Source: Fragilaria crotonensis (lineage: Eukaryota; Bacillariophyta; Fragilariophyceae; Fragilariales; Fragilariaceae). From it: a stretch of DNA of 64,000 nt. Shown here in pieces: positions 57,760 to 63,962 of this stretch. The stretch covers positions 1 through 64,000 of the forward strand of contig JAKSYS010000292.1 in NCBI GenBank assembly GCA_022925895.1, given 5' to 3'. Both the position numbers and the translations under genes were made by a program. Each line of letters opens with the position of its first letter. The stretch's first letter is position 1. The notes under the pieces are model-generated. The model did no database searches and was not told where the DNA came from. It saw nothing but the letters and a program-made list of their open reading frames with translations.

Positions 57760-58660
57760 AGTAGCTTGCTCGTGGGTAGTCCAGAAAATTGTATCGAGAA
57801 TGTTCTAATCATCGACGGATGTATATGTACGCCACCGATCCGCGAAACTCAACTCCCGGTAAGCAAAAACAATTTTGTCCGCGATGGTACGAATATGGGT
57901 CAAGGCGCCCCTAGGGTCCCATCATGGTTATCGTGCTTCAATCGAGTAATGAGCAATGTATTGGGGTATTTACACCACCAGAGACCCCTCACATCAGGCC
58001 ACATGGTCCATCGGTCATGTATACTGGTCACTTGGAGGGAGGTAGTTAGACGTACCCAGGCGCGATAGTGGCGGTATAAATCATAGGTAGGTGATTTTAG
58101 GGCGGATTTGGTCCCGGCGTGGGAAACCAACAAATCACACAGCAACGCGAGTAGCATGGCGTCGATGCTCGTTCCCAAAGCGTTTGGTCTGATAAACTGA
58201 GAAAAAAAAGGCCATATGATAGTACTAACATTGGCGATCAGTAACGAGATATCTTATAACGCGTACTGAGTACTGTTCATTTTGTGCGAGATACCGTCGG
58301 TGGTATACAGTCGACTGTTGTATAGCCACTCGACTATGGCTACATTTCATCATGACTATACCAGGAACAGTATATGTATACAAAAGAACGGAAATTCCAC
58401 CAAAGTGGTATTATGTACGAGAGGGTAACAGGGGTCCCCGTAGAATTTTAATATACTGTAATTTTGGTGCAAGTATAATATGGGTAAGTTTTGTTGCACA
58501 AGTGGCGCTGAGAGTGGATTTTTTCCCACGTATAGGTGCCCTATTGAAAATCCACTATTCCACTCGTTCTGGTTGTCGACATTCTTCGCACTTCGCTTTA
58601 AAACGTTGTGTAAAATACAAAGCAATCAACTACTAGAGGCACCATCATTGACATCATCAT
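57760..58660. other. Spacer between copia fossil and Crypton
   Basis: No gene supported. GTAC words at 58255-58330; AT-rich sequence at 58370-58500. It may contain the left end of the Crypton, which has no inverted repeats to mark it. Confidence 0.35.
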
Positions 58661-58661
58661 C

Positions 58662-59836
58662 ATGACTGATCTTGTGGAATACAACAAACAATATCATCCC
58701 TATCTGTCTGAATTTATGGCATTTCTACACCCAGACGCGATGTTTGACACAAATTTGGTGATTGGAATCGATTTGCTCGCAGAAGTCAAGCCAAATGATG
58801 TCGCACGATTTCTGCGTTTGAAGGCATTTGGAACTGCAGACCCTACCCCAGACATGCAACCACATTGTGGAAGGGCAAACTCCCTCGGGCAATACAAGAA
58901 AGCAATTTCCTACTACGTGAGAGTCATCAAGTCCGAGGCGTGGAACGAAAGGATCCAGGATGGAAATCCAACTCGATCTGCTATTGTAAATGATGTGATC
59001 AAGCGAGTGAAAAAAGGCAGAGGTAAGGAAACTTGGAAAAGAGTCAGCGGCACGACGCCCCCCTTGGAACCTGGAGAGTTTGAGTATACAATGAGTGCAC
59101 TGGTGTCACGATTTAGTGACATCCGGCGTAAGTACTTGGTTCCAGCGGCGGCAAAATTTCAATTTCACATGATGGCACGGATTGATGATACTAGCCATTT
59201 TGATGAAGCCGACCTGAAACCGCACCCTCAGTTCCCATTTGCCCTCCAAGCAAGGATGTGTTGGTCAAAGAATGTACGAGAGGAACGTGACGCTCCCGAC
59301 CAAATTATTCTGGGTGCGATGGATATCAGGTATTGCGTTTTGCTTTCCCTTGGCATTTATCTTGAAACTTGGTGTAATTCTGGCCTAGGAGCGACAAATA
59401 ACTTTCTGTTTGGGTCTTCTGACAAGCCTAAAAGGACAAAGGAGTTCATGTACAATGTCTTGAGAAAGCTTTGGGATTCAGATGGCTTTGTCCCGGAGGC
59501 CATGGGTCCACTTGGTACTCACAGTCTCCGTAAGTTTCCTGCAACGTACGCACGCCGAAATGGGTGTACAAAGATGACGTTGATGCCCGTGGGCGTTGGA
59601 GGCGAAAGAGAGTAAGTGATGTCTATATGGATGTCAACTTGCCCTACCCTGATGCAAAGGTTGCATCAATTCTTTGTGTTGGTGGGCCATGCAAGTATGT
59701 CGTGAAGGAGGGAAGCGGGGTGACTGATCAATGGCTGGGGGAGCATGTTGTTCCTTCACTTTTGGAGCAGCCACCGCAGGATCCACAGGAGTGTAAGTCT
59801 TGTTCTTGCGAGACCAATTTTGTGGGCATGCTTTGA
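58662..59836 (+). CDS. Crypton tyrosine recombinase
   Basis: The first 304 residues hold the core-binding part and most of the catalytic fold. Arg173 in MMARIDDTSHF fits the first catalytic Arg. The box THSLRK at 286-291 gives the HxxR pair (His287, Arg290). The nucleophilic Tyr is expected in VSDVYMDVNLP, just past a one-base frame change near 59570 (GCTK then DDVDARGRW). Tyrosine recombinases move Cryptons as circles without DDE chemistry. A further frame change near 59800 leads into LARPILWACFDARMESAMP. Start at 58662 is the first Met of a frame with protein character; no family N-terminus is available to test it. Confidence 0.7.
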
Positions 59837-60227
59837 TGCTCGCATGGAGTCAGCAATGCCAGTTGAACTTCGCACTCGTATTCGTGAGGCCTATGCAGGT
59901 ATCCGAGTGTTAGAGGCTGATGTCAATCCGGTCGATAGAGTGCTTTTGGTTGTTACTGGATATGAGAATCAAGTGCATATTGATGAAATAGTGGGGGAGG
60001 AGTTGGACGAGGAGGATGCAAATGGCACCCATATTGTTGGTGGCACTCGTGGTGGGATGGTGAATGCACAGCAGCACTTCCGAGCGTTGTATGCACAGAA
60101 CGTGCTGGCCCTGCGTCGTGAGGTGCAGGAATTGCGAGATAGTCTTGAGGTTTTCCGCAACTCTACAAGGGATTTCATGCATCGAATGAATTCAAACATT
60201 ACTCAAATTGGAATATAACCTGCTCGA

Positions 60228-60617
60228 GTGCGGCGCCCTGATGCTGGAGGGGCAGCAGTGGTGGAGGAGGAGCAGCAGAACAGGGATAATGTTGGTGGTA
60301 TGGATAGAACTGCTACATTGTCGCGAACGCCTCGTGATCTTCATATCCTCTGGCATGAGTATGAGTTTGGGTTGGGAGGTCGGAAGCCTGCTAGGTTGTT
60401 TACACCAGCAGAACGTGGACGATGCAAATATTTATACCATCGTCGGAAAGTTGTTTGGGATCAGATTGCCAGCATGATTCGTGCTGGACACACGGCACAA
60501 TCAGCAATAGACTACCTGTATTATCAGTATGGTCGTGACAAGCCTGTCACACAAATTATCAATGATAGGAGGCGTCATCGCATGCGGGATTGGAATAACC
60601 TTGGCTACCATGTTTGA
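60228..60617 (+). CDS. GCR1_C-like DNA-binding domain of the Crypton
   Basis: In the same frame as the coiled-coil segment before it (59745-60218), separated only by TAA at 60216. It reads RTPRDLHILWHEYEFGLGG, then the basic helix KYLYHRRKVVWDQIA, and ends NDRRRHRMRDWNNLG. That follows the GCR1_C domain (LW-x-E-W-x-x-G-x-GG then the YxRRKxI helix), named from yeast Gcr1 and recurrent at Crypton C-termini. It probably binds the element's ends. There is no ATG at the start, which supports its being the tail of the longer protein rather than its own gene. Confidence 0.6.
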   Translation: MRRPDAGGAAVVEEEQQNRDNVGGMDRTATLSRTPRDLHILWHEYEFGLGGRKPARLFTPAERGRCKYLYHRRKVVWDQIASMIRAGHTAQSAIDYLYYQYGRDKPVTQIINDRRRHRMRDWNNLGYHV

Positions 60618-60624
60618 GCGAATG

Positions 60625-61030
60625 GAATCGCAGCGTCTTCGGAGTGAACATTCATATTTTCACATAGGCATCTACTATTAAAAATATTACTGGAGTAGTA
60701 AGCACTGTCATGGAACAGTGGGATGTTAAATAGTTATTCGGTTTGGTTCATGGTCCGCAATGATCTCGTCACATTTTTATTGAGATTTGGTAACGCAGTG
60801 ATGCGATGGGATCTGCAGCACCAGGTACACTAGCAAGTAAATCTCTACCAGTAGTACAATTACTCTGATATCTGCTGTACAGTGTCGTGTTGTTTCCACT
60901 GTACCTGGTAGACCACTGGTCCTACCGGTACCGGTAGTACCAGGTAGATGCCAGTGCAGGGTTGGTAGAGCGGCAAGCGACTCCCCCCATCGACCCCTTT
61001 TCACCGGGTGGAATTGAGAGTGGAATAAAA
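60625..61030. other. Intergenic, GTAC-rich
   Basis: No gene. GTACCGGTAC-type words at 60830-60950. Confidence 0.35.
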
Positions 61031-61035
61031 AGGAC

Positions 61036-61628
61036 TACCACATACAAAGTGCCTGGAGCCGTTTCGACCGCTGGAGCCGTTAAAAGGGTTTTTTCGACAC
61101 CTCCTACAAAGAAGTCACTCAATTTCAAGAATTCAATGGACATATGCACAGCCGAGTTGATCTCTGATATGCAATACAGCAATGTCATCTAGAGCGGTTA
61201 ACGAACCGATTAGTAAACTGGGGTTGTGAATGCAACTGCATGTTGAGGGTCGGCAATTTTTCACCCCTTCGGGTTTTCACCTCATTGATCGCGTACCACC
61301 AATAGGGAAAAACTCTGTAGCAGTAAAAACCTAGTACGAGAAATCATGGTCGAATGGGGTGAAAAATCTCAACCGATGCCTAAAAAATGTCTTAAGGTAC
61401 GTATACATTTAAATGAAGTGCCTGGAGCCGATAAATGCAAAAATGAGCTTCGCAAGTTCAGCAACAACTTTGTCAATTCTTGCTTCAGTACAAGAATGAT
61501 TAATGCACTGGATAGTCAAGAACATTGAACACTATTTGTAAGCAAACAGACTTGAAATCAAAGCATTTTTGAGCGAGATATCTTTAGTCCACAACGGGGT
61601 AACGGCTCCAGGCACTTTTTATGTGGTA
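61036..61628. mobile_element. Small TIR element (MITE)
   Basis: A 0.6-kb segment bounded by imperfect inverted repeats of about 28 bases. The core AAAGTGCCTGGAGCCGTT is perfect at both ends (61045-61062 and the inverse near 61600-61618), preceded by TACCACATA on the left and mirrored on the right. Subterminal copies of CTGGAGCCG lie at about 61070 and 61425. A TA directly outside the core at both ends would suit a Tc1/mariner-type target. No transposase inside. Exact ends are uncertain by about 10 bases. Confidence 0.55.
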
Positions 61629-61956
61629 CTATCACAGTATACAGACTACCGGTAGTAGTACAGACAACTCCTCAAGCGGATTCCTAGACAACGGACGACA
61701 GGCAGAACGCTTTTTGAATATAGCTTTACGCTCTGTATGCATACCAGGTATTAGTACTTGTCTACCGGTAGTCCCAAAAAGATTGTGGGAAGACTTACGA
61801 ACTAATTAGTGAGCGCTTGTTTCTTAATGCAAACATGACGACTTCTATATACATGTACCTGGAAGCATTCAGATACATACTAGTTCTGCAGAATAGAAGC
61901 CATTGAGATTCAACGACGAGATTATAGTAGCTTAGCGCCATATCAGAGCGTGCAGT

Positions 61957-63962
61957 CTAGTTGCCAGCATCCAAAGTATAGAGCAGGAGATATGCAGTCC
62001 TTTGGCTGTGCGGGCTTTTCAGGACCTTACTGATATTTGCTGGATAGGCAGTCCCGTCGTCAAAGGACACCCATTGTACTTCGTCCCCGTCCCCACGAAC
62101 CGCATCAGCTGTGTAGTGGCCAGATGATGGAGTGCTACCGTGGTGGTGGACAATGCCAGACAGGTTGTACTTGCCAGAACTTTCTCTCTGTTGCTGCATG
62201 TACGTGCCGAGATCAATCGATTCAGGTATAACAACTTGATCCTTGTTTTTCGATATTATCATCTCAACCGGAGGAGATTCCACTTCAGCTTCTGTCTTGG
62301 TCTCGTCACCCGTTTCCGGGTTTCGAATGTTTGATCGAATTGCACGTGGTTTCTCCTTGATCACGAATCGCTTTAATTGCAGAATCAGAGCCTTCGGTTG
62401 TGATGACACGACAAGCGTTTGAGTTGCTGTTCTGCCGTCTTCACACTTTTCGCACTTGACATCGCGCTGCTCTGCCTGAAAGAACTTTTTTAGGCCATCA
62501 TTAACTGACCACGTTGGGCGCACTTCGTCCTCTGGGGGTGTGATGTGGCGATCCACCTCTATGCTTAAATGTCGATACATTTCGTTCATCGTTCTAGCAA
62601 AAAGGCGTCAGGATGTTATGACGACAAAATACAAAGAGTGAACAAAGGACCTTACCTTGTGTAGCCACAGTTGTCGCATTTCAAACATGCTTGCACATCC
62701 ATTCGAAAAAACTCATCGGTAAGCGCCGGCGATGCCTTTCTGACCTTCTCAGCGGAATTCGTGCCCGGTGGTAAGTTTTCCTTGTCGGTTTCGGCATCCT
62801 GCTTCACCTCTTCTGTCTCGTCATGAACACGATCGATGAGGTCAGAAAGGAACTCATGAGCATCACGCTGCTCATTGCCTGAAAAGCGATCCGTTACGGC
62901 GTCAATGGCATCCTTAACCTGACGAGGATTCACTGACGATGCCGTAGACTCCTGAAGCTCATGGGCCACTGCTGCAAGACTTTTTGTAACGATGCTGCCT
63001 TGACCAATGAGACGGGTACAAAATTCAGAGACAGTACACAGGAGTTGCAATGATGAGTTAAGGTAGCAAGTGTTGCCCAAGTTTCGGAGTCCCTTCCATT
63101 TGGTTGGCGGCGGTGGTGGCTGTGCAACACCAATTATCTCGTTAGGACTTTGCTGTTTCGATGCCGACACGGGGCTGTGTGATCCGAAAGGAATTTTTCG
63201 CGGCGTAAACGACGCGGAATCCAAGACACTGTCAGCTTTGCTTCTGCCATACATTGAAGAACGGTTCACAAACTTCCTCCGAGACAGGCGAAGTCTTTTG
63301 TGCGATCCGTCGCCTTGGTCATCATCGCTGTCGGCAATGCTGTCTCTGTTGGGGTCTCGTTGTTTGGGCGGCACAAAATGACGCGCAATGGATCTCGAAG
63401 GTGACTTACTCCGAAAAGGCGACGCATACGCGGTCGTCTTTGTTGGAGTTCGTTCAATCCAAGTTAAGTGGTCTGCCTTCAAAGGAGTATGCGATTGCGT
63501 GATCTTAGTTATGGTCTGACTTTCGTTGTGAGGCGTTGCGGATAGATTACTCGTAATAGTAGCCTTTGGTTTGAAAAATTCCGAAGCTGGCTTGGGCTTG
63601 GCTGCAAAGAAGTCTGAAAGTTTGCCTTGACGCTTATCATCTGGCTGTTCGGGTTCCTCGTCGTGGTTGTCATCCATAGCAGCGGCATGGGGCGTCACAA
63701 GACGGTTAGTGATCGGTGTGGTAATGGGAACCTCGTCAAACAGACGATCGTCGTCTGAATCACTGTCCGCCATTTTCTTGACTATCCTTCGTCTCGCCGT
63801 CTTCGGCTTTTTGGACTTCGAGGGTACCTGACTTCTGGTAGTTAATCGAGGTGCGTCATCTTCACTCATGACCAGTGTCATCTCATCGTCACTTGCTTGC
63901 GAAGCACTTGACATGACATACGTTCGTTCCTCGTCGTCTCCAATTGATTTATGTGGAGACAT
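61957..63962 (-). CDS. Ubiquitin-specific protease with PIP-box-like motif
   Basis: Two exons, 63962-62656 and 62593-61957, with a GT-AG intron of 62 bases (GTAAGG...GCTAG) joining CGYTR to TMNEMYRHLSIEV in frame. The first 285 residues are disordered, Ser/Asp-rich, and contain RQGKLSDFFA (residues 111-120), a match to the PCNA-binding PIP box QxxLxxFF. The USP fold follows: GLRNLGNTCYLNSS with Cys299, QRDAHEFL, zinc ribbon CLKCDNC and CEKC, palm ALILQLKRF, and GHYTADA with a nearby FDDG. It removes ubiquitin, perhaps from PCNA or other replication proteins (inference). The frame stays open to the window end, so the true start may lie outside. It is related to the USP at 29.5-31.1 kb. Confidence 0.8.

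Follow-up and report, generated by a model that had tools for sequence, protein, structure and literature searches.

The 64,000-nucleotide stretch of Fragilaria crotonensis DNA analysed here (contig JAKSYS010000292.1, positions 1 to 64,000; hereafter the window) carries a copy of a real transposon of the Crypton kind, which belongs to a large set of families in which some copies are near-identical. It is highly probable, in our assessment, that this Crypton-kind DNA transposon is excised as a circle, exchanges strands within a 3-bp core, and forms arrays by repeated integration. Measured against the open-licence literature, its domain combination, a 3-bp core that varies by family, and a target tendency of the form GTAC-N7-GTAC are new. 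We see an even chance that these families constitute a third GCR1_C-bearing Crypton lineage, resident in a diatom, that joins a non-Ndc10/CryptonF recombinase to GCR1_C, uses GTAC-N7-GTAC-like sites with an exchangeable core that switched between ACA and GTA from one related recombinase to another, and builds mixed-family arrays. The initial annotation had described a tyrosine recombinase element with a coiled coil and a GCR1_C-like domain in a diatom, a description now supported by the catalytic residues, a PHROG match, GCR1_C, unoccupied sites and silicon transporters.

That annotation had placed the element at 58662-60617. This interval proved to be the coding part, which is not one open frame, and comparison of copies together with their junctions gives a larger mobile element spanning 58380-61636. 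Matches to relatives span 58662-60614 (tblastn pieces). The features of the window copy are as follows.

58380..61636, plus strand: whole element, family A, with a later MITE inside (copy comparison and junctions)
58380..58382, plus strand: left 3-bp core, ACA (left genomic junction compared with tandem junctions)
58393..58412, plus strand: left-end subterminal inverted repeat AATTCCAC-CAAA-GTGGTATT, one mismatch (all 7 family representatives have some inverted repeat close to this end)
58662..59615, plus strand: N-terminal region and the greater part of the tyrosine recombinase domain (open stretch of 317 codons, frame shifted at its end)
59178..59180, plus strand: catalytic Arg I (RIDD), an invariant column in relatives
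59268..59270, plus strand: candidate catalytic Lys (WSKN), an invariant column, its role putative
59520..59531, plus strand: HxxR box HSLR (in THSLRK), H and R invariant
59564..59836, plus strand: recombinase continued in another frame, with the GRW motif and candidate catalytic tyrosine
59624..59626, plus strand: candidate nucleophilic tyrosine (VYMD), an invariant column in relatives
59745..60218, plus strand: open stretch covering the middle region and the heptads, ending at an in-frame stop, its first codons in the wrong frame
60090..60194, plus strand: 35-residue heptad (coiled-coil-like) stretch before GCR1_C, from a/d positions
60318..60518, plus strand: GCR1_C domain (PF12550), E=1.3e-5, 25.8 bits against a Pfam cut-off of 23
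61038..61626, no strand assigned: MITE-like insertion that splits the right end of the element, bounded by CCACATA...TATGTGG and accompanied by a TA duplication (other copies and ends)
61634..61636, plus strand: right 3-bp core, ACA, followed by genomic GTAT

The MITE in the right end is 589 bp long and has 26 other near-full-length copies in the genome at 82-98% identity by our own count. Without it and one TA, the family A element measures about 2.67 kb, and the flanks of the window copy then read TATGTAT-ACA on the left and ACA-GTATAC on the right. A ubiquitin carboxyl-terminal hydrolase (UCH) gene occupies 61957-63962 on the minus strand in two pieces (E 1.8e-23 and 3.6e-21) and stops about 320 bp away from the right end of the element.

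The coding stretch of the window copy is interrupted by frameshifts and one in-frame stop, such that three pieces share a frame and the fourth lies in another. Frame disruption appears to affect all five family A copies, with many of their indels falling within homopolymers, where some may be assembly errors; some relatives outside the family are intact. A frame-breaking gap near 59569 is common to four of the five family A copies. That copies at different places hold the same gap implies either that a broken copy was moved by another's protein or that the gap is partly a sequence artefact. The shared gap also raised the possibility of programmed frameshifting at about 59569, but the relatives in alignment A1 read through this position in one frame, which makes a lesion inherited by copies that moved in trans, or an error in the sequence, the likelier cause. 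The broken window copy could presumably move only with protein supplied by another copy.

The identification of the protein as a tyrosine recombinase is carried by its catalytic residues. In 14 of 14 aligned relatives an R-K-H-R-W-Y set is invariant, comprising the R of RIDD, the K of WSKN, the H and R of HSxRK, the R and W of GRW, and then Y; in this alignment the broken window copy was represented by a sister copy on contig C205 (L009). The THSLRK box (His at 59520-59522, Arg at 59529-59531), the RIDD arginine and the YMDV tyrosine named in the initial annotation are all present and all fall in invariant columns. Its expectation of a recombinase profile match was borne out in one database and not in another: Pfam Phage_integrase stayed below its cut-off (two of 14 relatives at E<=1, best E 0.08), whereas the PHROGs integrase profile phrog_1 matches three of the 14, with a best E of 9.7e-5. 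One of the matching regions, in the intact relative L015, spans residues 120-345, with the tyrosine at its end (E 4.9e-4). NCBIfam gave no match for the three stretches searched, and a PDB profile search returned chance-level matches only. AlphaFold2, run on the 317-residue piece of the window copy without an alignment, gave a pLDDT of 34, too low to be of use. No relatives were confirmed in IMG/VR, searched with the alignment and with the L011 protein, and none were found in prokaryote genomes; each of these scans was seeded by few short peptides and had limited reach.

Downstream of the recombinase, the C-terminal GCR1_C assignment holds above the Pfam cut-off. The domain is found at E<=1 in eight of 14 relatives, and the remaining six rows end before or inside it. 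Across the genome, GCR1_C exceeds its cut-off at 41 places, two of which are a CryptonF-type gene; at that threshold no family A copy is among them, and not all 41 places are tied to the elements described here. The coiled coil that had been read from the sequence corresponds to the heptad stretch at 60090-60194, in which eight of ten a/d positions are strongly hydrophobic, a value reached by two of 1000 shuffles, counts that are optimistic because only the best-scoring stretch was chosen and shuffled.

The genome searched comprises 62.1 Mb in 881 contigs. By DNA search, family A has four further close copies at 95-99% identity, a pair each on contigs C205 and C468, making five with the window copy, and weaker DNA relatives lie on eight further contigs. 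The L015 protein (696 codons) has at least 82 matching stretches on at least 51 contigs, the window's included (own count), these being lower bounds because 64 of 357 candidates were scored. Because the element is multicopy, the reading as a conserved single-copy host gene fails, and the general rarity ascribed to Cryptons at the outset does not hold in this genome. The elements are 2.5-2.7 kb long, with one long ORF between the mapped ends.

In the recombinase region, dN/dS is 0.02-0.12 for six pairs with dS from 0.14 to 1.58, and 0.27 and 0.46 for two near-identical pairs with very few changes; for four pairs, the window family's included, dS is saturated and gives no ratio. Such purifying selection would also be compatible with host genes, and GCR1_C also occurs in yeast regulators, as described in the part of PMC3212892 available to us. 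The corresponding alternative, a family of Crypton-derived host transcription factors resembling yeast Gcr1, Msn1 and Hot1 with no transposon involved, can further point to family B, which has an intact open reading frame and ends that were not found. Against it stand close copies scattered over unrelated loci and bounded by sharp ends, unoccupied sites, tandem arrays and the conservation of the catalytic residues. For families A and C-H the insertion structure argues against this alternative, which we consider very improbable. Family B itself (L011 2180-4753, G000:C394) is the nearest to the window family in the tree, has no recognisable ends, and could be an old or host-adopted copy.

Comparison of copies gave sharp ends in seven families. 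Four of them, the window's own family A together with C, D and E, have ACA as their core, and the remaining three, F, G and H, have GTA. The proposal that other copies would define the ends and short direct repeats was thus borne out, with an equal 3-bp core on both sides of all 21 insertions in which both ends are present; the end-search patterns contained the core and allowed up to four errors. These 21 are the insertions whose genomic ends on both sides lie in the loci analysed. Excluded as one-sided, truncated, nested, arrayed, unresolved or duplicate were L013, L017, L020, L023 (identical to L034), L026, L028, L030, L031 and L036, together with L037, L040, L042, L043, L045, L047, L051 and the arrays on C205 and C468. 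For family H the right boundary can be placed only to within 4 bp (GTACGTA). In the tree, the ACA family C clusters with G and L030, both GTA, at 100/100, and with L030 at 87/86, a pattern suggesting a change of core inside one recombinase lineage; the C_L012 row was flagged as a long branch of unsure placement, and the GTA of L030 was read by eye from its left end.

The two ends of the element differ in structure. At the left end, an inverted repeat lies at about 12-35 in A and C-F, at 1-32 in G and at 19-45 in H; in family F it reads AAATACAAC-N4-GTTGTATT. The mean best score of these left-end repeats was 7.3, compared with 2.0 for shuffles (maximum 5.0 of 200). The right ends of the family representatives showed no excess, at 3.3 against 2.8 for shuffles, the family A right end having been taken 3 bases short in this test.

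Probes made by joining the two flanks recovered unoccupied sites for four of 15 insertions, one at two places with 98% identity and the others at 95%, 83% and 82%, and in the alignments these sites carry the core once. For the other 11 probed insertions no junction-spanning site was present among the best 40 of 352 candidates, an absence that is weak evidence because only those 40 were scored. The six insertions outside the probed set were C_L018, E_L022, E_L027, E_L029, E_L032 and G_L033. One unoccupied site suggests that the left boundary of C_L048 is a few bases off because the left end of that copy is altered. Head-to-tail junctions with a single core were found on C205 (two), C468, C362 (C-C), C764 (C-D), C296 (H-F) and C317 (G-G), and array junctions account for seven of 36 left ends in a hand tally. 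At L043 an F copy is nested in an E copy, within the left end of the latter.

The sites of insertion share a recognisable sequence. Across the 21 insertions, targets tend toward GTAC-N4-core-GTA(C), with the two arms 7 bp apart. GTAC occupies positions -8 to -5 at 12 of the 21 (five of 12 ACA sites and seven of nine GTA sites; background 0.014), and GTA occupies +1 to +3 at 14 (nine of 12 ACA sites and five of nine GTA sites; background 0.028), with the background taken from window positions 1-58000 only. The full GTAC follows the core in nine insertions, and GTAC stands on both sides in five, compared with none among 3928 background cores. At least one arm is present at 19 sites, the two sites with neither being E_L022 and H_L044. 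The window's own site has the right arm only, as GTAT, with no GTAC at -8. A test for dyad symmetry placed the centre of ACA sites at 17.0, with a score reached by 0 of 5000 random sets, and that of GTA sites at 12.5, with a score reached by 2 of 5000, so that there was no common centre and neither coincided with that of GTAC-N7-GTAC; the reading of the target rests on the offset counts instead. In alignments read by eye, GTAC-N4-core-GTA was already there in three of four independent unoccupied sites (L025, L048 and L039), the fourth being without the left arm. That the motif precedes insertion implies that it belongs to the target. Tyrosine recombinases typically use inverted repeats of 11-13 bp spaced 6-8 bp apart according to the available part of PMC3212892, whereas only four arm bases are recognisable here.

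The core repeats, single-core unoccupied sites and arrays fit circular integration by a tyrosine recombinase. Under this mechanism, the protein would excise the element as a circle whose junction, judging from the tandem junctions, would read right end-N4-core-left end. The recombinase would then bind the two target arms, 7 bp apart, and strand exchange would take place within the common 3-bp core. GCR1_C, the left-end inverted repeat, or both may guide the protein to the end of its own element. Head-to-tail arrays, also across families, would arise when integration recurs at the junction of a resident element. A circular intermediate was proposed by Goodwin et al., as cited in PMC3212892, and that source deduces Crypton integration from analogy and from short repeats at the termini. 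Now that a single genome offers seven families whose ends are mapped, together with unoccupied sites, a signal at the target and mixed arrays, the circle-and-recombine mechanism becomes directly testable.

A second alternative is that only the recombinase part of a DIRS/Ngaro-kind retroelement has been seen. To our knowledge, neither 3-bp repeats nor GCR1_C are features of DIRS elements. In its favour, other recombinase-like ORFs in the genome look DIRS-type by eye and match our profile modestly, with HxxR...GRW...Y aligned at E 2.8e-4 and a probability of 41%. Each unit of 2.5-2.7 kb studied here, by contrast, holds one long ORF, and Pfam found no reverse transcriptase, RNase H or DDE transposase among the 14 relatives at E<=1. 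This alternative is even less probable than that of a host gene family, and both were rejected on the insertion and domain evidence. The other recombinase-like ORFs form a separate class (L053-L061), which accounts for 62 matches to Phage_integrase across the genome at E<=1, all of them below the cut-off. They share the HSxR/GRW/Y motif with the transposon described here and differ in matching Phage_integrase more closely (5.8e-5 and 6.2e-4 in the two that were scanned, still below the cut-off) and in having no GCR1_C. The upstream ORFs give this class its DIRS-type look by eye; Pfam named no reverse transcriptase in four of them.

With the Crypton-kind reading preferred, its place among the known groups can be considered. 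An R-H-R-Y recombinase and the lack of reverse transcriptase, DDE transposase and terminal inverted repeats are as in Cryptons generally, although the terminal direct repeat is 3 bp rather than the published 4-6. CryptonF, in the available part of Kojima and Jurka 2011 (PMC3212892), combines a tyrosine recombinase with GCR1_C, occurs in fungi and oomycetes, and has mostly 6-bp repeats. The present element resembles it, as there described, in carrying the recombinase and, downstream of it, GCR1_C on a single protein, in lacking terminal inverted repeats, and in having short direct end repeats. It differs in its 3-bp repeats, its diatom host, its many copies, some of them arrayed, and in the absence of a match to NDC10_II, used as a proxy for a recombinase of the CryptonF/Ndc10 type (none in the window pieces or in the 14 relatives at E<=1, Pfam). 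A separate gene of the CryptonF type is present in the same genome (L049 55-1821, G000:C386:27606-29372), with 589 codons, NDC10_II at 1.3e-31 and GCR1_C, and a second copy lies on C444; diatoms are not among the CryptonF hosts listed in the portion of PMC3212892 at hand. By hhalign, alignment A1 had no match to this CryptonF-type gene.

CryptonS, in the same available text, is known from oomycetes and Phaeodactylum, is without GCR1_C, and has 5-6-bp repeats with mostly TATGG ends. Shared with the present element are stramenopile hosts, the absence of a CryptonF-type recombinase match, and short terminal direct repeats; GCR1_C and the 3-bp ACA/GTA core set ours apart, in a comparison made with the published description of CryptonS. 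The element therefore fits neither published candidate group exactly. As a matter of classification only, and compatible with the main reading, it is quite possible, at slightly under an even chance, that these are true CryptonS elements whose C-terminal region is a diverged GCR1_C missed by older models. CryptonS has, in the portion of PMC3212892 available, a conserved C-terminal region and a range including oomycetes and a diatom, and NDC10_II is unmatched in our proteins. The presence of GCR1_C and the 3-bp ACA/GTA core count against this classification, as judged by that published description. Either way, GCR1_C, which is common to yeast regulators such as Gcr1, sits here on a protein without the CryptonF recombinase profile, and it does so in hosts for which the published Crypton group had been described as having no such domain. 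In the available parts of two diatom genome papers (PMC5859163 (13) and PMC7466962), Crypton appears only in repeat tables or lists.

Outside the Cryptons, the phaeovirus integrase system of Ectocarpus, as set out in the accessible part of PMC13236599, resembles the present one in its short core and left-end inverted repeat. It differs in that a virus genome rather than a 2.6-kb transposon is integrated, the core is 2 bp, and the available description includes no GCR1_C.

The assignment to a diatom host is supported by silicon transporters (PF03842), with 19 matches in the genome, 18 of them over the cut-off and the best at E 4e-193. Silicon transporters also occur in a few other silicifying protists. 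At one locus (G000:C97:29749-33762) three silicon-transporter domains stand in a row in one open frame of 1456 codons, and on contig C771 two such domains share one frame of 1008 codons.
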